A program made the position numbers and the translations under genes. Below, piece after piece: positions 50,462 to 60,422 of a stretch of DNA of 64,000 bases. The notes below the pieces were generated by a model. It did not search any database. It saw only the letters and a list, made by a program, of their open reading frames with translations, and had not been told where the DNA came from. The DNA is from Clostridiales bacterium CHKCI006 (GTDB lineage Bacteria; Bacillota_I; Bacilli_A; Erysipelotrichales; Coprobacillaceae), in assembly GCA_900018345.1 (NCBI GenBank), contig FCNA01000132.1, positions 1-64,000 of the forward strand. Reading direction: 5' to 3'. Every line of letters begins with the position of its first letter. The first letter of the stretch is position 1.

Positions 50462-50523
50462 TGTTAATTTCCTCCTGATCCAATGTAGTTTCCGGGGCTA
50501 CTTTGGGGGCAAATTAGTGCCAC
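50462..50523 (-). ncRNA. Possible L13 leader (autoregulatory mRNA element)
   Basis: Between the promoter and rplM the mRNA begins near 50,522 and contains GCACTAATTTGCCCCC and a GTAG/CTAC hairpin with CCCCGGAAA loop. An L13 leader is known upstream of rplM in Firmicutes; this assignment rests on position and a plausible hairpin only. Confidence 0.45.
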
Positions 50524-50528
50524 GATTA

Positions 50529-50557
50529 ATTATAGGCTAATCCCTATCTTTTGTCAA
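50529..50557 (-). promoter_or_regulatory. Consensus promoter of rplM-rpsI
   Basis: On the minus strand TTGACA (50552-50557), 17 bp, TATAAT (50529-50534): a perfect housekeeping promoter about 70 bp before rplM, as expected for a ribosomal operon. Confidence 0.9.
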
Positions 50558-50665
50558 CAGAAAATCATGGATAAAAGAACGAAAAATGCAGTTATGTCAA
50601 TTCTTTTTTCATCTCCTCTCAGTAAGAAGAAATCCTTTTTAAGATCGTATGAAACTTGTTTATCC

Positions 50666-52462
50666 TCAATTCGTATTCGCTCGTAATTCTTCTTCAATGG
50701 GCATCTTTAAAATAGGAATGAAGAACACTATGCCCGGAAGTAAAATATCGATTACCAATAAAAGAATGCCTAAACGAATAAATGATACATCCAGTTGAAG
50801 GGTAAAGTATTTCAGGAAGAAATGATTGCCGACCATCATCAATAGACAGATTACTGCAAACGTCAATACAAAGTTAATCAGCAGTTTAAGGATCCATTCT
50901 CCAACTTCTAAAACGATAAGATCCTTACGGCTCAGACCATTGGCCTGATAGACGCAAAGCTCACGATGTTTATCTAAATATTCATGATAAGCCATATATG
51001 CTAAGAGAATAAAGGTAAGAATATTCATAATCATGAACGCCATATAGCCATAAAGTTGATTGGAAGCCATGCTGCTTTGCAGGGTTGCGACATCCTGGAA
51101 GGTATTCGTCATGGTGAAATGGGGATTGATCTTTGTCAGGTCCTCTTTGATCAGATCATACTGTTCGATATTATTGATATCCACAACATACTTGCTGGTG
51201 AAAGTAGCCTGATCATCCGGAAAGATAGAACTAGGTAAATACAGGATACAGCGACCACTTTGATCATCATACATAGAAGTTCGATTCATTCCTAACACAT
51301 CTTTTAAGATATATGAATGTGACGCGCCATCTATGTTTACCTGAATAGTCTCGTCCACATACGCTAACAACGTACTATCCGCATAGATACCCTCCGCCTC
51401 ATCACTTCCTACCTGAAATGGATAGATTGGATAAATCTGGACATCCTGTATCGTTCCATCCGGCAAGGCCAGAGTCCCATCTAAAACCAGGATCTTCTCC
51501 ACATCCTGGACACCGGCAACCTCAGCCATCTGTTCTATCTCTGCATCGATAGCTTCTGGCATCAGGGTATCAGTCAGCACAATGACCTCATCTTGGATTG
51601 CATTGCTTAACATTGTTTCATATTCCCTGTTTGAGATATCGTTATACCTGACTAGAAAAATACTCAAAGAAAGCAGTAGGATCGTTGCCAGCATCAGCCA
51701 TCCATGCCTTAAAAAAGAGCGGCGAATATAATGGAACGATAACTGACGATAAAATGAGAGTGGCACATGACTCTGACGCAGTTTTCTGCTTTTAGAGAGA
51801 GGATGCTCCGGCACTGTTTTCACTAAACGAATCTCTCCGGAATGGATCTGGTAGATACGACTGGCAAGATCATCATAAGCCTGCGTATGCGTCGAAACAA
51901 TGACGATCTTTCCTTTATCCCTAGCCAGTTTTGCCAGAATCGCCATCATCATATTCGCATTTTCATCATCTAAAGCACTCGTTGGCTCATCGGCCAGAAT
52001 CACCAGAGGATCCTTGGCCAACACACATGCCAAACAGAAGCGCTGTTTTTCTCCACCAGAAAGGGTATGCGCATAGCGTGAAGTCACCATATCCAAGCCG
52101 ACCAGGCGAAGCAAACGCCTGGCTTTCTTTACCGTCATCGTCTTTCCGGCTAAACTGGCAAACAAGCTTAGATTTTCATATAAGGACATCGAATCAATGA
52201 TATTAAAGTTCTGATAGATAAAACCAATCTCTCTTTTCTTAATCTGATCCCGTAAACTGCCATTCGCCATCTTTTTTCCATTCAGACGATAGACATAATG
52301 ACGGTGCTCGGATATCAAACCCAGGATATACAAAAGCGTCGTTTTTCCTGAACCGGATTCACCCTTAATAAAGGTCATTTCACCAGGATAAAAGCAGAGG
52401 GGATCCCTGCTTTCCAGACGAAAGCCTTCCCGATGAATGCTTAAGCCCGATATCTTCAGCAT
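50666..52462 (-). CDS. ABC transporter, ATPase-permease fusion (MacB/FtsX-like)
   Basis: The 598-residue protein has an N-terminal ATPase of the LolD/MacB type: Walker A IKGESGSGKTTLLYILGL, signature HTLSGGEKQRFCLACVLA, Walker B LVILADEPTSALDDENA. Then one membrane helix (WLMLATILLLSLSIFLV), an extracytoplasmic domain of about 200 residues and three C-terminal helices (GYMAFMIMNILTFILLAYMA ...), an FtsX-like permease layout. It follows the ABC gene at 52,467 by 4 bp and is probably co-transcribed. Such fusions export or sense peptides and often give bacteriocin or antimicrobial immunity. Confidence 0.88.
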   Translation of the reverse strand: MLKISGLSIHREGFRLESRDPLCFYPGEMTFIKGESGSGKTTLLYILGLISEHRHYVYRLNGKKMANGSLRDQIKKREIGFIYQNFNIIDSMSLYENLSLFASLAGKTMTVKKARRLLRLVGLDMVTSRYAHTLSGGEKQRFCLACVLAKDPLVILADEPTSALDDENANMMMAILAKLARDKGKIVIVSTHTQAYDDLASRIYQIHSGEIRLVKTVPEHPLSKSRKLRQSHVPLSFYRQLSFHYIRRSFLRHGWLMLATILLLSLSIFLVRYNDISNREYETMLSNAIQDEVIVLTDTLMPEAIDAEIEQMAEVAGVQDVEKILVLDGTLALPDGTIQDVQIYPIYPFQVGSDEAEGIYADSTLLAYVDETIQVNIDGASHSYILKDVLGMNRTSMYDDQSGRCILYLPSSIFPDDQATFTSKYVVDINNIEQYDLIKEDLTKINPHFTMTNTFQDVATLQSSMASNQLYGYMAFMIMNILTFILLAYMAYHEYLDKHRELCVYQANGLSRKDLIVLEVGEWILKLLINFVLTFAVICLLMMVGNHFFLKYFTLQLDVSFIRLGILLLVIDILLPGIVFFIPILKMPIEEELRANTN

Positions 52463-52466
52463 ATCC

Positions 52467-54611
52467 TCACCTCATCTTTCTGAAAAACAAATACTGACTC
52501 ACACCCTGACTCAAACAGATTGCCACAAGGTAGAAAAGGCCTGCTAATAAGATCATATCACTACTTAAACGAACCGTATATGGCGCCAGCGAATTGAGAT
52601 ACTCATTCACACCATAAGTCAGCAGATACATTACTATTATCCCAATCAATAGTTTCCAGCCAAATTCTTTCCAGAAAATCGACTTACAAGTGGCTTCATT
52701 CAAACCATTCTGTCTGAGGTAACAAATATCCTTCTGACGAACACGCAGGGTAAAGAACTGAATCATGACTAAACCGATCACTAAAATGACCAAAGCCAAC
52801 ACACTGTAAAGATAGGTGGTTCGTTTTGTTGAAGCTAATGGGTCCTCATTAACCTTAAATCCACTGCTGTTATAAGCTTTTGTCACAGTGACATTCAGAT
52901 TAGGATCGATCGATGTGATCTCACGCGTGACTTCATCAATAGCGTCTACCGAATCAACAGTTAAAACATAGACACTCGCATCCCAGACTGGATTCATACA
53001 CTCCATCGTCGATTCCTCCCAAGGTCCTCCGATATTTGACGGTGTATTCATCATCACTTCTAACAATGGCATATTGTCTTTACGATACTTTTCCTGAATA
53101 GCAATGATCTCTTCAATCGGTAAAAAAACATCAACTTCATCAGTATTATATGCGCCATAATCACCCACTATATTTTCTGTGAGAATACCTCTTATAGGAT
53201 ATTCAAAATAGCCATGAACGATGATTGGGCTTCTCGTTTTCACTTTTTCGCCAGTTATGGCAGGTTCTTCCCAAATAAAAACCCCCATTTCAAATTTCAA
53301 AGACTGGCTATTCAGATCAGTCAAGTTTAAATGATCCGCTAACCCCTGAGAGATGTAAATAACCCCATCTTCATTGAGTTGACTACAGCGATCATCATAA
53401 AGCTGGTGAGAATATACCGGTGCAACCGAATAGAGGAAAATCTGTTCACCAACGTCCAGTTCATATTGATCGAAAATCATTTGATAATAATCATCAAAAG
53501 TACCCGAATCAACTACCGTATCCCCATCTACAATTTCAACCGGTAATACATCATTACGCTCTGAGCCAGAAGAACCATCACTATTGAGTTTACTAAAATG
53601 ATGGATATTCTTTAAATATAGGAATGGCTCCACTGACAAAACATGATCCACATTTTTGAGTTGATCGACCATTTCTTCATCGATTGCCATATTTGAATCA
53701 TTATCCAGATTCGTATAAGAGCCTTCATACGAATTAGCCACTAGCAATTCTGTTTGATAGATATCTCGAACATTCAGCTTTTGCTCCTCAATATTCCCCT
53801 GTCCAAGTGTCAACATGCCAATTACCAGTGCAACACAAAGCGAAGAGACGAGTATTGACAATCCATTCACAAACTTAAAATGATATAAATAACGTTTAGC
53901 CAAATAGGATTGAATCCGTTTCAGCTGACCAGGTCGTATGTCTTGTTCTTTGGTAGGTGTGGCCTTCTTCAACTGAACGACCTTCAGCTTCTTATTATCT
54001 ATCGTATATTCATCATAATCGTGGAAATAGCCATGCTCGTGTGTCGCTACAACCACCATCTTCCCTTGTTGTACGGCTTCATCGATCAATGATACGATGG
54101 TCTTTTTATTCTTGTCATCCTGCATTGCTGTCGGTTCATCCAAAATAAGCAGTCTGGCATCCTTCAAAAAGGCGGAAGCTAAGGCAACTCGTTGTCTTTC
54201 GCCCCCAGACAATTTCTTGACCTTTTTATTTTTGAGCTTGGTCAGCCTTAACTTCTTGATGATCTCATTCATCTTCCTGGAACTATTCTGATTCAGCTTA
54301 CAGCTAAACGCCAACTGTTCCTTCACACTCATGTGTTCCAATAACTCCGCTTTCTGGTTCACGAACGCTACATCTTGCAATTTCAGCTCATTGATGGCTT
54401 TTTCATCACATGCTTTGATGTTCTGATCATCAATCTGAAAACTTTCAGCCAGATCCAGTTTGTTTAGGCTCAATAGTTCAAAGATGGAAGACTTTCCGGT
54501 TCCACTGGGACTTTGAATCAGGCATAAACGTCCATTTTGAATCACCAGTTCCCCTTGCTCAATGACGACTTTATTATCAAATTGAATGTGCAGTCCTTTT
54601 GCAGCCAACAT
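52467..54611 (-). CDS. ABC transporter, ATPase-permease fusion (copy 2)
   Basis: The 714-residue protein has an N-terminal ATPase (Walker A IQSPSGTGKSSIFELLSL; signature KKLSGGERQRVALASAFL; Walker B LLILDEPTAMQDDKNKK), one helix near residue 240, a large outside domain and three C-terminal helices (LYSVLALVILVIGLVMIQFF, LLIGIIVMYLLTYGV, MILLAGLFYLVAICLSQGV). Its ATPase is about 96% identical to that of the gene at 55,234 (9 differences over about 215 residues), yet the permease halves are clearly diverged. The aspartate/alanine spacing DEPTAMQDD differs from the usual DEPTxxLD. Confidence 0.88.
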   Translation of the reverse strand: MLAAKGLHIQFDNKVVIEQGELVIQNGRLCLIQSPSGTGKSSIFELLSLNKLDLAESFQIDDQNIKACDEKAINELKLQDVAFVNQKAELLEHMSVKEQLAFSCKLNQNSSRKMNEIIKKLRLTKLKNKKVKKLSGGERQRVALASAFLKDARLLILDEPTAMQDDKNKKTIVSLIDEAVQQGKMVVVATHEHGYFHDYDEYTIDNKKLKVVQLKKATPTKEQDIRPGQLKRIQSYLAKRYLYHFKFVNGLSILVSSLCVALVIGMLTLGQGNIEEQKLNVRDIYQTELLVANSYEGSYTNLDNDSNMAIDEEMVDQLKNVDHVLSVEPFLYLKNIHHFSKLNSDGSSGSERNDVLPVEIVDGDTVVDSGTFDDYYQMIFDQYELDVGEQIFLYSVAPVYSHQLYDDRCSQLNEDGVIYISQGLADHLNLTDLNSQSLKFEMGVFIWEEPAITGEKVKTRSPIIVHGYFEYPIRGILTENIVGDYGAYNTDEVDVFLPIEEIIAIQEKYRKDNMPLLEVMMNTPSNIGGPWEESTMECMNPVWDASVYVLTVDSVDAIDEVTREITSIDPNLNVTVTKAYNSSGFKVNEDPLASTKRTTYLYSVLALVILVIGLVMIQFFTLRVRQKDICYLRQNGLNEATCKSIFWKEFGWKLLIGIIVMYLLTYGVNEYLNSLAPYTVRLSSDMILLAGLFYLVAICLSQGVSQYLFFRKMR
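53962..54611. repeat. 650-bp repeat, copy A (ATPase domain)
   Basis: Aligns without gaps to 56,732-57,381 at a constant offset of 2,770 bp. Sequence identity drops sharply at the boundary to the permease part. Confidence 0.9.
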
Positions 54612-54741
54612 AATATGATCCCTTCTTTCTTTAAAGAATCCCCCTTTTTCGAATTATCATTTATCCCTTAATTTGAGTTTATCTAATTTATCACATAATG
54701 TAAAGACAATCTTTCCATTTTACTTGTCATCATTATATATA

Positions 54742-54753
54742 ACTCAATTGAGT
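54742..54753. promoter_or_regulatory. 12-bp palindrome upstream of ABC copy 2, possible operator
   Basis: ACTCAATTGAGT lies within TATATA-rich DNA about 130 bp before the ABC gene. Its place in the only non-coding gap (54,612-54,878) of this cluster suggests a binding site. No second copy was noticed. Confidence 0.4.
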
Positions 54754-54776
54754 ATATATCTCTTTATCGACTTACC

Positions 54777-54807
54777 TAAAAAACTTCTATGAAAGCTCAT
54801 AGAAGTT
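54777..54807 (-). terminator. Terminator after the bacteriocin-like gene
   Basis: A perfect AACTTCTATGA / TCATAGAAGTT hairpin is followed by a T-run on the minus strand, 72 bp past the stop of the small secreted protein gene. Confidence 0.85.
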
Positions 54808-54878
54808 AAAACAGAAGAAGCCATAAGCCCGGTAAAATCATCGAATCTGAGAATCAAATATCGAATGATTAACAATTG

Positions 54879-55232
54879 TTATTTGAAATAGTGAAAATTA
54901 GAAACCGTATATCGCCTGCTTGAGGTACCAAAAAAGCTGAATGTTACATAACCAGTCGCTTGAATATACGCACTTTTTGTAGAAGCACTTGGCCCTTCAG
55001 TCGTGCTTGAGTAACCAAGAGGATTCGATTTTCTCCAGGAACCACCTTGGTAAGTGGCATAATATCCATCAACGATAGAAGCATGAGTCGTCATGGTAGC
55101 ATAAGCATCATTCCAAGGTTGCGTCTTAGATAACGATTCTTCTCTAGGCGCTGGAATCCTAGCGGATACACCAACGACTAACAACAGCGATAGAATAAAT
55201 GTAAAGCCGAAAGTCAACATTTTCTTTAACAT
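54879..55232 (-). CDS. Small secreted protein, possibly lactococcin-972-like bacteriocin
   Basis: The 117-residue protein has a Sec signal peptide (KKMLTFGFTFILSLLLVVGVSA, cut probably near ARI) and a Cys-free, Ser/Tyr/Thr/Gly-rich mature part with YYATYQGGSWRKSNPLGYSS and TGYVTFSFFGTSSRRY. Size, composition and the adjacent FtsX-like ABC fusions recall lactococcin 972 systems, but the similarity is loose. It starts 2 bp after the ABC gene at 55,234, with AAAGGAGG upstream, and is followed by a terminator. It could instead be a secreted signal or adhesion protein. Confidence 0.55.
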   Translation of the reverse strand: MLKKMLTFGFTFILSLLLVVGVSARIPAPREESLSKTQPWNDAYATMTTHASIVDGYYATYQGGSWRKSNPLGYSSTTEGPSASTKSAYIQATGYVTFSFFGTSSRRYTVSNFHYFK

Positions 55233-55233
55233 A

Positions 55234-57381
55234 CTACGTCCTCCTTTTCTTAAACAAGCTCCTTCTGGTTTTAGAAAACATTAGTCTGTATAAACAATAA
55301 GTAAGAATAAATACGATTAAATAAAGAATAACACTCAAGAATATCAAATCTTCGCCGAAGCTAATCGGATACGAAACATAGGATTTTAAATAACGCATGA
55401 TAAGATAGGTAAACAAGATTGTCACCGGAATACTAATTACAAATTTCCAGAGATACTCTCGGCTATGTATGCTCGTTAAATCCTGATCAGATAATCCATT
55501 CTGCTGTAAATAATACAGATCTTTTTTACGCATCCGAACCATTAAGTAATTCATGATTGTGAGCCCCATCAACAAAGCTAAGACAATTAAAACACTATAC
55601 ATATAGACTGTTTGTTTAACAGTATTGGCTGCATCTTGAGAAATCTCTAATCCATTATTTGCGAAAGCTTTTGTCACTGTTGCATTCAAGTTCGAATCAA
55701 TAGCTGTAATAGAGCGAACCACATCATCAACAGCTTCTGGAGAATCAATATTAACCACGTACGCACTGGCTTGCCATCCTTGTTTCATGCACATCATTAA
55801 TGGATATGTAGTGTTCATCGTTACATATTCTGCTGGCTCTGTAGACATAACATCTAAAAGTTCCTGGTTTTTTTGTTGATATTCAATCTGCATTTTTTCA
55901 ATCTCTTGTGCCGAAAGATAAATATCGGACTGATTCATTAGGCCATAATTTCCTACAATATTCTCATTAAGAACTCCTTTGATCGGATAGGTTAGATCTG
56001 TCAAAACAGAAATTCCACTTCGAGACAGTCTCGTCTGATTCCCATTTTCATCCAATACAGCACTTGGTGACTCACCAATATAAATGCCTATTTGAAAATG
56101 TAAACTAACACCATTTATATTATCAATATTTAAATAATCAGCCAATTCTCGTGAAATATATACACCTTCTGCGTCATTCACTTCATCACATCTATCCTCA
56201 AGTCGCTGATGTGCGTAATAAGGTTCAACACCAAACACATTTTGCGTCGAATAAATTTCCTCAAAAGAAGTTTCTGCTATGACGCGATTATCCTGAATCG
56301 CCTCAATCAGGTGTGATGATGGTCTCACTGAATCTACACCATCTTCAGTTAATACATAATAAACAGGATTACTTAATAAATATAAATAGGGCTCAACCGA
56401 TAATACATGATCAACTTCTTTGATTTTTTCTATAACATCCGATGAAATAGCCAAATTACGTTCACTATCCAATCCTATAGGAGATTCAGGTAACGGATTC
56501 GTAACAAACAATTCTGTCTGATATATGTCACTTATATTTAGTGTTTGTTCTTTTACATTTCCTTGTCCTAACGATAACATACCAATGACTAATGCAATAC
56601 TAATGGAAAAGACTAGTAAATAAACCGTGTTGATGACAGGAAAATTGACCAAATAACATTTAGATAGGAATGATTTGATAGAAGAAAGCTGTCCTGCTTT
56701 TCTTGTATTCGTTTCTTCTTTTTCAATATTCGCTTTTTTCAACTGAATGACCTTCAGCTTCTTATTATCTATCGTATATTCATCATAATCGTGGAAATAG
56801 CCATGCTCGTGTGTCGCTACAACCACCATCTTCCCTTGTTGTACGGCTTCATCGATCAATGATACGATGGTCTTTTTATTCTTGTCATCCTGCATTGCTG
56901 TCGGTTCATCCAAAATAAGCAGTCTGGCATCCTTTAAAAAAGCGGAAGCTAAGGCAACTCGTTGTCTTTCGCCTCCAGACAATTTCTTGATTTTTTTGTT
57001 TTTGAGCTTGGTCAGCCTTAACTTCTTGATGATCTCATTCATCTTCCTGGAACTATTTTGATTCAGCTTACAGCTAAACTCCAACTGTTCCTTCACACTC
57101 ATGTGTTCCAATAACTCCGCTTTCTGGTTCACGAACGCTACGTCATGCAATTTCAGCTCATTGATGGCTTTTTCATCACTTGCTTTGATGTTCTGATCAT
57201 CAATCTGAAAACTTTCAGCCAGATCCAGTTTGTTTAGGCTCAATAGTTCAAAGATGGAAGACTTTCCGGTTCCACTGGGACTTTGAATCAGGCATAAACG
57301 TCCATTTTGAATCACTAGGTCCCCTTGCTCAATGACGACTTTGTTTCCAAATTGAATATGCAGACCTTTTACACTTAGCAT
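55234..57381 (-). CDS. ABC transporter, ATPase-permease fusion (copy 1)
   Basis: The 715-residue protein has the same plan as copy 2: Walker A IQSPSGTGKSSIFELLSL, signature KKLSGGERQRVALASAFL, Walker B LLILDEPTAMQDDKNKK, then one helix (VINTVYLLVFSISIALVIGM), an outside domain and three C-terminal helices (MYSVLIVLALLMGLTIMNYL ...). It heads the two-gene unit with the secreted protein. Start ATG 57381 follows a GGGGGG stretch. Probably exports the secreted peptide's relative or confers immunity; substrate not deducible. Confidence 0.88.
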   Translation of the reverse strand: MLSVKGLHIQFGNKVVIEQGDLVIQNGRLCLIQSPSGTGKSSIFELLSLNKLDLAESFQIDDQNIKASDEKAINELKLHDVAFVNQKAELLEHMSVKEQLEFSCKLNQNSSRKMNEIIKKLRLTKLKNKKIKKLSGGERQRVALASAFLKDARLLILDEPTAMQDDKNKKTIVSLIDEAVQQGKMVVVATHEHGYFHDYDEYTIDNKKLKVIQLKKANIEKEETNTRKAGQLSSIKSFLSKCYLVNFPVINTVYLLVFSISIALVIGMLSLGQGNVKEQTLNISDIYQTELFVTNPLPESPIGLDSERNLAISSDVIEKIKEVDHVLSVEPYLYLLSNPVYYVLTEDGVDSVRPSSHLIEAIQDNRVIAETSFEEIYSTQNVFGVEPYYAHQRLEDRCDEVNDAEGVYISRELADYLNIDNINGVSLHFQIGIYIGESPSAVLDENGNQTRLSRSGISVLTDLTYPIKGVLNENIVGNYGLMNQSDIYLSAQEIEKMQIEYQQKNQELLDVMSTEPAEYVTMNTTYPLMMCMKQGWQASAYVVNIDSPEAVDDVVRSITAIDSNLNATVTKAFANNGLEISQDAANTVKQTVYMYSVLIVLALLMGLTIMNYLMVRMRKKDLYYLQQNGLSDQDLTSIHSREYLWKFVISIPVTILFTYLIMRYLKSYVSYPISFGEDLIFLSVILYLIVFILTYCLYRLMFSKTRRSLFKKRRT
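56732..57381. repeat. 650-bp repeat, copy B (ATPase domain)
   Basis: Ungapped match to 53,962-54,611. Nucleotide runs of more than 100 bp are identical, including many third positions. Confidence 0.9.
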
Positions 57382-57440
57382 CTTAACCCCCCCTCTCTTT
57401 TTCTTCTTTTCTTAACTTTATTTTAGCAAGCGCTACCATT

Positions 57441-57485
57441 ATTGTACAGAAACATCTACACACTTTTTTGACAATTCCTTGTCAA
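57441..57485 (-). promoter_or_regulatory. Putative activator-dependent promoter of ABC copy 1
   Basis: On the minus strand TACAAT (57441-57446) has no good -35 at 17 bp. A perfect inverted repeat TTGACA-N6-TGTCAA (57468-57485) is centred about 42 bp before the expected start, where a class II activator would bind. TTGACA-N16-TGTCAA recurs at 57608-57635 before the divergent peptide gene. Together with AT-rich DNA these fill the 57,382-57,698 gap. Confidence 0.55.
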
Positions 57486-57698
57486 TTTTTTTATTTCTTA
57501 AGTATCATGTTTTTAGTGTTTTCTTATATCATTCATATCCTTTTTAGCATTTTAGTATATTTCGAATGTAAAAATTAGTTTTCATGCATTTATTTCATTC
57601 AAATTAATTGACAAATTTCATTTTTTATGTGTCAATGTCTTAAATAAAATGATTTTTTGATTTATAATTTGAATTGTAAACAAAGTGGAGGTTTAACT

Positions 57699-57872
57699 AT
57701 GAAACGAATATTAAAAATTATTTTTGTTCTTACATTATTTTTTACTTGTGTATTAATCACAGATAAACATTATAAAGCAAATAGTGAAAATACAAATAGA
57801 GAGATAATAGAAATCGTCACTCCATCCACACCGGTCAGCCCGTTATTCCAAAAAGATCCTCCACATGAATAA
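57699..57872 (+). CDS. Short secreted peptide precursor, candidate quorum-sensing pheromone
   Basis: The 57-residue product begins with a basic-hydrophobic signal sequence (MKRILKIIFVLTLFFTCVLI) and ends in a proline-rich polar tail (VTPSTPVSPLFQKDPPHE). ATG 57699 follows GTGGAGG. Its last 8 bp overlap the start of the RRNPP-like regulator, so both are translated together. Secreted pre-peptides beside RRNPP regulators usually give the signalling peptide after cleavage. The mature form cannot be seen. Confidence 0.65.
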   Translation: MKRILKIIFVLTLFFTCVLITDKHYKANSENTNREIIEIVTPSTPVSPLFQKDPPHE

Positions 57873-59121
57873 AGTTCAAAACATATCTTTATTTTTGAAG
57901 CTTAATCGAATAGTTGAAAAAATACCACAAATCAATGTATCTATCGACACTAAGCTTGATGCTTCTTTAATTAGCCGTTTCGAATCTGGAAATCGCATCC
58001 CCAATGCGAAGCAAATGAATCTATTGCTTAATTATTTTGGCACTGATGTAGAAACATATTCAAAAGAATTCCCAATCATTAGTAAAAGGCTTTCAGATTT
58101 ATTTATAGCCATTTACGAAGCACAACCCTATGAAGTTCGTGAACGGATCATCGAAGCAATTCCTAAAGATCTAATTAAAAAAACGCATTATTTTCCCTAT
58201 CTGTATTTATTCACTTTTTGCCACTATGTGAATGCTGGTAAAACAGCAGAAGCTTGCTCTTATTATGAAACACTTACTAAAGTTGTTGCAAACTACGATG
58301 AAGAAATGCAAGCCTTATTCTATATGTTTTCGACGTTATATCATTATGATACCAATTGTATTGATTTACAATTGAATGATTTTCGAAAGCTGAAGTCTTG
58401 TCAAGTCACAGATAAACGTATTCTCGCACTTTTACATTATTTTCTTCTTTCCACCTATCCTGAGCGCCATTCTCTTAAAAGTATCTTATTACATTACCAG
58501 AAGTGTAAAGAAATTCTAACGGAAGACCAAAACGTTTTCCGATTGACCATGTTGAACATGCAGCTTGCGATACTTTATGGTGAATACGATTTAGTAAAAG
58601 CATCCATCGCAACTGATTTAAGGACCTTAGAACAGCTTAAGCCATTCACTGGAATCACTCAATTAATTAAATCACTTCATTTTAACTTAAGTTGGTCTTA
58701 TATGCGTATACATGATTATCAATCCGCTTTTGATCATGCCTATGCCTGCAAAGATGACTATCATAATCGGACTATCTACTTTATGTTAGCGTTTTGTTGC
58801 TATCAGTTGAATAATCATCATGATTCTAAGAAATACATCCTTGCAGCTAGAAAAGCCCAACCATCAGCTCAATTCTACGACTATCTGCTGGACTGGCTTG
58901 AAGCTATGCTGGAAAAACCTTATCAAAAAAAATGTATTGAGACGCTTCTTTGCATCGAAAAAAAACTACAATATGAATTGGATTTTGAATCAAAACAATC
59001 AATTTTCGCTTTGATCGTTGATTATTATCATCACCATCATGAATTAGAGAAGATGAATCAATATCTAAATCAAATGGAACTTAAAAATGTCATCGTCTCT
59101 ATTCCTGCGCCTATTCAATAA
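57865..59121 (+). CDS. RRNPP-like (Rgg/PlcR-type) HTH-TPR regulator
   Basis: The 418-residue protein has an N-terminal helix-turn-helix (INVSIDTKLDASLISRFESG, then NAKQMNLLLNYF) and about 330 residues of TPR-like helical repeats (YLYLFTFCHYVNAGKTAEAC, LNMQLAILYGEYDLVKASIA, FNLSWSYMRIHDYQSAFDHA, YFMLAFCCYQLNNHHDSKKY). This is the plan of regulators that bind imported peptides. Coupling to the peptide gene and position beside the divergent ABC/bacteriocin genes suggest it controls them. The region is distinctly AT-rich compared with its neighbours. Confidence 0.82.
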   Translation: MNKVQNISLFLKLNRIVEKIPQINVSIDTKLDASLISRFESGNRIPNAKQMNLLLNYFGTDVETYSKEFPIISKRLSDLFIAIYEAQPYEVRERIIEAIPKDLIKKTHYFPYLYLFTFCHYVNAGKTAEACSYYETLTKVVANYDEEMQALFYMFSTLYHYDTNCIDLQLNDFRKLKSCQVTDKRILALLHYFLLSTYPERHSLKSILLHYQKCKEILTEDQNVFRLTMLNMQLAILYGEYDLVKASIATDLRTLEQLKPFTGITQLIKSLHFNLSWSYMRIHDYQSAFDHAYACKDDYHNRTIYFMLAFCCYQLNNHHDSKKYILAARKAQPSAQFYDYLLDWLEAMLEKPYQKKCIETLLCIEKKLQYELDFESKQSIFALIVDYYHHHHELEKMNQYLNQMELKNVIVSIPAPIQ

Positions 59122-59131
59122 GCGGTTACCC

Positions 59132-59161
59132 AAAAACGAGAGTTAGTCAGACTCTCGTTTT
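59132..59161 (+). terminator. Terminator of the regulator operon
   Basis: AAAACGAGAGT / ACTCTCGTTTT hairpin with a 7-8 nt loop, about 10 bp after the regulator stop and ending in a T-run. Confidence 0.85.
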
Positions 59162-59279
59162 ACCTATTCTGAATATCGGCAATGATCTGAATGGATATTG
59201 CTTCCTTCTTCCCCGCCTGCAATTATGGACTAAAGATTGGTAAAGCACACCGTTATATTATCGGCAGATAAGTACTGAA

Positions 59280-59471
59280 TCATTCATATTGCAAGATCTC
59301 TGCACCTAGATGCGCAATATTGCTAAAGAATAACACATCACTAATTAAAGTGATCATCAAAGTTAGATTGAGCCATAGGCGGTGTTTAGTTGGTGCTAAG
59401 ATAAATGTGCCAAAAAGGAGTCCAAGTGTGATAGCCAGAGATATTTGCAGCTTGAAATGACAGAAAATCAA
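59280..59471 (-). pseudogene. Possible remnant of a membrane protein gene
   Basis: An open frame ends at 59,280 and encodes two hydrophobic helices (LAITLGLLFGTFILA and LWLNLTLMITLISDVLFF). It starts only at a TTG without a ribosome site, just after an in-frame stop. It looks like the 3' end of a lost gene. Otherwise 59,162-59,534 holds nothing clear. Confidence 0.3.
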
Positions 59472-59534
59472 TGCATAAAATAAAAGAAATAGCTATTTTT
59501 TCGCAAACAAAAAGGGATCTCACCAGGAAATCCC

Positions 59535-60422
59535 TTATTGCCAATGCTTGAAATAAGTTTGAAAATCAGGTTTAGTAATGATGGTTAGCTCTTGGTTTTG
59601 AGCAAAGTCTTCTAATTGATGGATGGCTTCCTGTCCTAAGTGTTCAGGCTCATGGGCATCCAGGCCTAAGAGGATCGGAATGTCATAGTTTTTAGCTTCC
59701 TGCCAGAAATACACATTCGGATAACCCTGCAGTTTTTCCTGATTAAAAGTATAGGCACAATCACGCAGCCCGCCCCCATTGACTTCAATAGGAAACTGAT
59801 AATGCTGACAGGCTTCCAGTAAACGCCGGGTTTCTGATTGAGCGACTTCATCCCACTTGCCATATCCTTTCAAAAAAATATCAGGATGGGCAAAGTAGAG
59901 AAATAAACCGCTCTGCATCGCCTCAATCGCTTCATCTACGTATAGATGCACTCTTTGAGAAGAGATCGGATAACGTGTATAGTTATTTGATCCGGTGACA
60001 AAACGATGAAAGTGATGTCCCAGGATCAGATAATCAATCTCGTGATGCTGCAGCAATTCCCGATAATAAGGAAGATACTCGCTGATATATTCGGCTTCAA
60101 AACCAGCGAAGATCTGAATCTGTTGCTGGTATTTTTCTTTTAAGTGTTGGATCGTGGACAGGTATTCCTGTTTTTGGGAATATGGCATGCGCATGCCCGG
60201 TCCATTATAGAGGAATGCCTTTCCGATGCTCAGCACATCATGGAAACGATGAATGCTGGTAGGGATGGATTCGATCAGATGGGTACGTAGGTGGGGCAGA
60301 GGGATATGATCGCTGAGACCAAGAATTTCGAAGTGGCTCGCGATGGCTGCCTGAACCATCTCTTCTTCAGAGCCGATGGCATGTCCGCAACGGTAGGTAT
60401 GGGTATGTAAATTAATCTTCAT
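59535..60422 (-). CDS. PHP-domain phosphoesterase (histidinol-phosphatase-like)
   Basis: The 295-residue protein begins with the PHP metal motif KINLHTHTYRCGHA (HTH), then SDHIPLP, FAGFEAEY, DYLILGHHFH, FAHPDIF and LLGLDAHEPEHLG, all metal-binding blocks of HisK-type PHP enzymes. No his genes are nearby, so the substrate may be another phosphate ester. It overlaps truA by 11 bp. Confidence 0.88.
   Translation of the reverse strand: MKINLHTHTYRCGHAIGSEEEMVQAAIASHFEILGLSDHIPLPHLRTHLIESIPTSIHRFHDVLSIGKAFLYNGPGMRMPYSQKQEYLSTIQHLKEKYQQQIQIFAGFEAEYISEYLPYYRELLQHHEIDYLILGHHFHRFVTGSNNYTRYPISSQRVHLYVDEAIEAMQSGLFLYFAHPDIFLKGYGKWDEVAQSETRRLLEACQHYQFPIEVNGGGLRDCAYTFNQEKLQGYPNVYFWQEAKNYDIPILLGLDAHEPEHLGQEAIHQLEDFAQNQELTIITKPDFQTYFKHWQ

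Follow-up and report, generated by a model that had tools for sequence, protein, structure and literature searches.

The question raised by this locus was whether a small secreted peptide and the regulator encoded directly behind it form a peptide/receptor pair of the well-known RRNPP quorum-sensing type, and whether such a pair would govern the ABC transporter genes on its other side. The window, a stretch of 64,000 nucleotides from Clostridiales bacterium CHKCI006, carries on the forward strand a propeptide gene (57,699-57,872) with the Shine-Dalgarno sequence GTGGAGG. Its 57-aa product, MKRILKIIFVLTLFFTCVLITDKHYKANSENTNREIIEIVTPSTPVSPLFQKDPPHE, begins with a basic n-region of K/R residues followed by a long hydrophobic core. 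Signal peptides were called by heuristic, as a signal-like N-terminus; on this call the product is a secreted propeptide within the 10-100 aa expected beside an RRNPP(A) receptor. The regulator gene follows on the same strand (57,865-59,121; 418 aa). The first-pass annotation had described a secreted precursor of 57 residues, peptide gene first, overlapping an HTH-TPR regulator by 8 bp, and the two open reading frames bear this out, the peptide stop and the regulator start overlapping by exactly 8 bp. No Shine-Dalgarno sequence of its own is visible at the regulator start, and together with the overlap this suggests that peptide and regulator are probably translationally coupled.

Pfam gave weak matches of the regulator to HTH_19 and TPR_2, and no NCBIfam model matched it. 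The structure prediction that the first-pass annotation had proposed was run with AF2 on an alignment of 89 relatives and reached a mean pLDDT of 94.4. When the model was searched against the PDB with Foldseek, the 16 best matches were all Rap or NprR quorum-sensing receptors (RapI, Rap3T with pheromones, NprR, RapH, RapF, phi105 Rap and RapJ with its peptide), several of them solved with the pheromone bound. A profile of the regulator family found NprR as the best natural full-length match, followed by Rap3T and RapH/RapF, although the E-value for NprR of 2e-30 is to be read with the caution that TPR profiles inflate E-values. RRNPP(A) receptors are described as a TPR superhelix with or without an N-terminal HTH and of 250-500 aa in length, and the regulator fits this description in its size, its HTH_19 and TPR_2 matches and its Rap/NprR fold. 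By its predicted fold and its profile match to NprR the regulator is thus an HTH receptor of the nine-TPR type, in the clan of Rap and NprR that PMC12700828 calls clan B, but it is no close relative of NprR.

A phmmer search with the regulator against PDB chains, at E-values up to 1, did not find a single RRNPP chain, NprR and Rap included, and the identity in the Foldseek alignments to Rap/NprR structures was 14-16%. Membership of the NprR subfamily, which PMC10075063 sets at 30% identity or more over 80% of a reference receptor, was considered and rejected for the regulator. An asparagine on the TPR groove anchors the peptide in RRNPP receptors, Asn227 in RapF and Asn225 in RapJ (PMC3601992), and in RapF this residue was tested by mutation (PMC3601957). 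Residue N274 of the regulator, which is Asn in 66 of the 89 family members, falls on the Asn of 'SNMGSIYYKKG' when the regulator is compared with NprR, but Asn is also generic TPR consensus at this place. A BFVD fold search with the regulator gave generic TPR matches only, and searches for homologues on plasmids and in phages returned none, which gives no hint of a relative of either kind.

The 3.33-Mb host genome contains about eight relatives of the regulator, and a small secreted peptide gene was found directly upstream of five of the host's regulators. These are C18, which is the window's own locus, and C60, C96, C106 and C139, which lie, as does C112, on other contigs of the same genome (G000). 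The block that holds the C18 unit is inserted between truA and rplM (window positions 50,462-60,411), where the gap is 9.95 kb, while rplM lies 0.4-2.7 kb from truA in eight of the 12 relatives examined. The G+C content of the block is 37% against 50% for the window, and that of the peptide and regulator genes 29%-33%; the block is an accessory island, probably an acquired one. The content of the truA-rplM interval varies: some relatives have nothing there, others a hydrolase of PHP type and others a pair resembling sigma factors, where this genome has the low-GC block of about 10 kb.

A cluster of genes on the reverse strand, divergent from the peptide gene and separated from it by a 317-bp gap, makes up the other part of the locus. 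It begins with an ABC transporter of 715 aa in which an ATPase (PF00005) is fused to a MacB/FtsX-type permease (PF12704; 55,234-57,381), followed by an orphan secreted protein of 117 aa with a signal-peptide-like N-terminus and the Shine-Dalgarno sequence AAGGAGG (54,879-55,232), a second fused transporter of 714 aa (52,467-54,611) and a third ABC fusion of 598 aa (50,666-52,462). The ATPase domains of the first two transporters are nearly identical and their permeases have diverged, which suggests that they were duplicated in tandem, with either gene conversion or an exchange of permeases. The best NCBIfam model for all three transporters was L_ocin_972_ABC (TIGR03608), with scores of 126.6, 129.9 and 151.7 bits that lie below its cut-off of 254.85 bits, and membership was not assigned. 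The 117-aa protein matched nothing in Pfam, NCBIfam, the PDB or plasmid sequences, its structure model (pLDDT 45) was unusable, and a search of 316 genomes for homologues gave none beyond one marginal match. A lactococcin 972 identity was rejected for this protein and likewise for its counterparts at other loci, as no Pfam or NCBIfam lactococcin match appeared at E-values up to 1. The name bacteriocin given to it in the first-pass annotation consequently has no family match behind it and is drawn from context, and we refer to the protein as a candidate bacteriocin only.

Counted at regulator loci, fused ABC pairs adjoin at least six regulators in four genomes: C18 and C96 in the host, two loci in genome G027, and one each in G003 and G001. 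The paired transporters are mostly of about 700 and 600 aa (662 and 661 aa in G001), and three of the loci (C18, C96, G001) also have a secreted orphan, 117-126 aa long, alongside the pair. C18 and C96 have the same divergent layout, and their regulators are about 20%-22% identical. At C96 (L076 2573-9183) the peptide-regulator unit is divergent from an ABC gene, a gene for a 126-aa secreted protein and another ABC gene, with little sequence similarity to those of the window. The recurrence of ABC pairs beside the regulators and the layout common to C18 and C96 make it likely that the regulator controls the neighbouring ABC cluster.

The DNA between the two divergent units was examined for a site through which this control might act. 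The perfect palindrome TTGACA-ATTCCT-TGTCAA (57,468-57,485), a candidate operator of the ABC promoter, has no second copy of its TTGACA-N6-TGTCAA form in the 3.33-Mb genome, and palindromes with arms of 7 or more arose in 46% of dinucleotide shuffles of the intergenic region. The first-pass annotation had placed this repeat at about -42 of an ABC promoter with a -10 and no -35 element. The palindrome is present, but this is only one reading of the promoter, since TGTACA-17-TAAAAT with an extended TG (57,448-57,420) serves equally well and would place the palindrome near -63. The half-sites that it had reported around the peptide promoter are likewise present upstream of the peptide gene (TTGACA at 57,608-57,613, TGTCAA at 57,630-57,635), but their enrichment is marginal, with four half-sites in 317 bp against a mean of 0.30 expected (P = 0.04 after correction for the choice of hexamer). 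No operator shared among C18, C60, C96, C106 and C112 was found. Given the shuffles, the half-site P value and the competing promoter, the palindrome and half-sites point weakly to an operator of the regulator.

This marginal operator evidence favors another reading, in which peptide and regulator do form an RRNPP-type pair, but one that acts on distant genes, and the ABC cluster simply travels with them on one mobile island. Most regulators of the family have no adjoining fused ABC pair, and the C106, C139 and Beduini copies stand without one, which also speaks for it. Against it are the six regulators in four genomes that do adjoin such pairs, and the two divergent units of one genome that are arranged alike despite the low identity of their regulators. 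We regard the distant-target reading as possible but doubtful, and control of the adjoining cluster as the better account of the locus.

The C-terminal ends of the propeptides bear on whether the peptide is a signal at all. That of the window peptide reads ...TPSTPVSPLFQKDPPHE. Many relatives contain a conserved HxHDxxCGY stretch, which the window peptide lacks, yet it has the C-terminus of the class, VSPLFQKDPPHE, and the C60 and C96 propeptides likewise lack the stretch and keep the C-terminal code. The class C-termini are IDPLFKKDPDN at C60, LSPTVLFTKHPGEED at C96 and VDPLGVEREPNY at C139, with IMPLIEGEPPIG and VEPFKHEGPKG in relatives, and have the motif [VI]xP[LFY] in common. Using a pattern chosen after inspection of the sequences, [VILM]xP[LYFK] within the last 15 residues, we found 16 of the 36 propeptides to match against 0.9 expected by shuffling, and 16 was never reached in 5,000 trials. 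PLF[QK]KDP has two exact copies in the 3.33-Mb genome, and both are propeptide C-termini (C18, C60), in keeping with the conservation of the signal at the propeptide C-terminus that is expected of RRNPP(A) systems. A copy of PLFKKDP with one mismatch at C12 was discarded, as it lies inside an unrelated ORF of 223 aa. In pheromone precursors a conserved C-terminus is found behind unrelated middles. The probable signal of the window peptide is the C-terminal stretch (V)SPLFQKDPPHE, whose exact mature ends we infer.

The peptide could instead be a secreted effector, a small product of bacteriocin kind or an antagonist that opposes the ABC system, with its gene translationally coupled to that of a transcription factor which does not respond to it. 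The 8-base overlap and the regulator start without a visible Shine-Dalgarno sequence favor such simple dosage coupling, and the HxHDxxCGY stretch conserved in many relatives could have a function of its own, for instance in binding metal. This reading is nevertheless improbable, because the C18, C60 and C96 propeptides keep the C-terminal code without that stretch, several peptide classes with unrelated middles have in common only the secretion signal, the position and the C-terminal pattern, and the fold of the regulator is that of pheromone receptors. A peptide signal with its receptor accounts better for these features.

A search for the peptide sequence in 60 relatives returned noise only, apart from the window itself, and linkage and the C-terminus were tested instead. 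A regulator scan of genome contigs found no close orthologues of the unit, the host being the sole genome of its genus among those searched. Criteria for linkage were fixed as ORF length, Shine-Dalgarno sequence and signal-like N-terminus, and 374 other genes of the same loci served as controls. A co-directional small peptide ORF lay directly upstream of 27 of the 98 family regulators and of 2 of the 374 controls (P 4e-18), and a divergent peptide gene beside 9 of 98 against 1 of 374; downstream there was no excess (3 of 98 against 9 of 374). The divergent peptide genes seen at L152, L156, L130, L143, L147 and L174 encode propeptides of different classes. Regulators with a peptide gene are scattered over the family tree, and in 60-odd percent of the family no peptide gene was detected next to the regulator. 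Conservation of the peptide gene beside homologous regulators, which the first-pass annotation had made decisive for the pair, was thus found generally, with an exception in the nearest homologue. Upstream of this closest paralogue, the C112 regulator with 39% identity (L075 12895-14136), no peptide gene was detected, and it could be an orphan receptor that listens to the signal of another unit. At C60 (L073 6691-8105) the propeptide is intact and the regulator frame has one internal stop codon; this unit, near a contig end, is probably a decaying copy.

The core of one propeptide class, H[VIQ]H[DTN][EDA]xCG[YE][DNK], was also scanned over about 85,000 species and matched 17 loci. Nine of these are free-standing small peptides and all nine lie directly 5' of a family regulator, while none of the other eight (five inside large surface proteins, three without an assignable ORF) is beside one. 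Several of the nine come from genomes already in the regulator search, so that the two tests overlap in material and not in method. Related units are carried by Beduini massiliensis, Traorella massiliensis and Dielma fastidiosa, and from these relatives the order of the host was deduced. Large proteins from other Clostridia and Bacillota contain HxHDxxCGY too, in many cases as a repeat (L195, L200, L201, L203, L206). That the small ORF is no gene and the regulator an ordinary HTH-TPR protein is very improbable, for although AT-rich DNA commonly holds small ORFs and C112 has none, the excess over controls, the nine of nine scan loci and the C-terminal code common to C18 and C60 all argue against it.

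Fold, peptide-first linkage with its controls, motif scan and C-terminal conservation, together with the gene anatomy, support the reading of the unit as an RRNPP-type peptide/receptor pair of a peptide-first, order-wide and apparently undescribed Erysipelotrichales lineage, probably controlling the ABC cluster, to which we assign a probability of about 0.8. For how the peptide is processed, imported and bound, which way regulation runs and which genes it reaches, we propose the following course. Sec would export the propeptide, and trimming would leave a peptide from its C-terminus, around SPLFQKDPPHE, which would re-enter the cell via an oligopeptide permease. The host genome has 13 matches to the oligopeptide-binding protein family PF00496, which may serve this import. 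The re-entered peptide would bind the TPR superhelix on its concave side, and the receptor would then change its binding at the intergenic region. In this way the divergent ABC/secreted protein/ABC/ABC operon, and probably also the receptor's own peptide operon, would be set by cell density.

Among described systems NprR-NprX of the Bacillus cereus group, in the nine-TPR clan B of RRNPPA, resembles the unit in its HTH receptor of nine-TPR size (about 420 aa), in profile and fold matches, and in a secreted propeptide beside the receptor. It differs in that a single-sequence search detects no similarity between the window regulator and the chains of the family in the PDB, the C-terminal code of the peptide is another, and the propeptide gene is upstream and overlapping where Bacillales systems have it downstream, according to PMC9765709. 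The same paper gives the pheromone gene as immediately upstream or downstream in RRNPP systems, downstream being typical of Bacillales; the peptide-first order, which the first-pass annotation took to be unusual, does depart from the Bacillales layout but falls within the described range. Rap-Phr systems (RapI, Rap3T, RapF, RapJ) are closest in fold and also have a secreted propeptide of Phr type with the signal at its C-terminus, but Rap proteins carry a 3-helix bundle in place of the DNA-binding HTH, and in the window unit the peptide gene comes first. Rgg-SHP, ComR-ComS and TprA-PhrA of streptococci are likewise RRNPP systems, whose regulators are known to control peptide or bacteriocin genes next to them, and ComR-type sensors of S. 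salivarius link competence and predation (PMC6703854); these systems belong to the five-TPR clan A in PMC12700828, and beyond two weak hits to Rgg_C the 89 members of the regulator family gave no family match. Clusters of lactococcin 972 type, such as that of streptococcin B (PMC11796350), also have a Sec-secreted protein of about 120 aa beside ABC genes, but the window protein has no family match and its neighbours have ATPase and permease fused. Erysipelotrichales are absent from the main text of the surveys PMC10075063, PMC9765709 and PMC12700828, where a supplementary listing is possible, and none of the papers searched names RRNPP together with Erysipelotrich-.

What appears to be undescribed is an order-wide lineage in which the propeptide gene comes first or runs divergently, the C-terminal code is distinct and linkage to the ABC module recurs. 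Erysipelotrichales are common gut bacteria. We lean towards the wider view that the order as a whole has an undescribed family of peptide-first RRNPP receptors. Each genome would have many parallel peptide codes, all variations on one C-terminal pattern, [VI]xP[LFY]-x(5-8), and translationally coupled to their receptors, with several of them wired to a recurring competition module of secreted protein and fused ABC transporters. If this is true, the range of pheromone gene positions would be wider, with co-directional upstream or divergent genes and downstream ones at background. At least six units would point to a concrete output, the ABC transporters with the secreted protein, and density signalling in Erysipelotrichales would become testable, as the pheromones could be read from the propeptide C-termini and synthesized.
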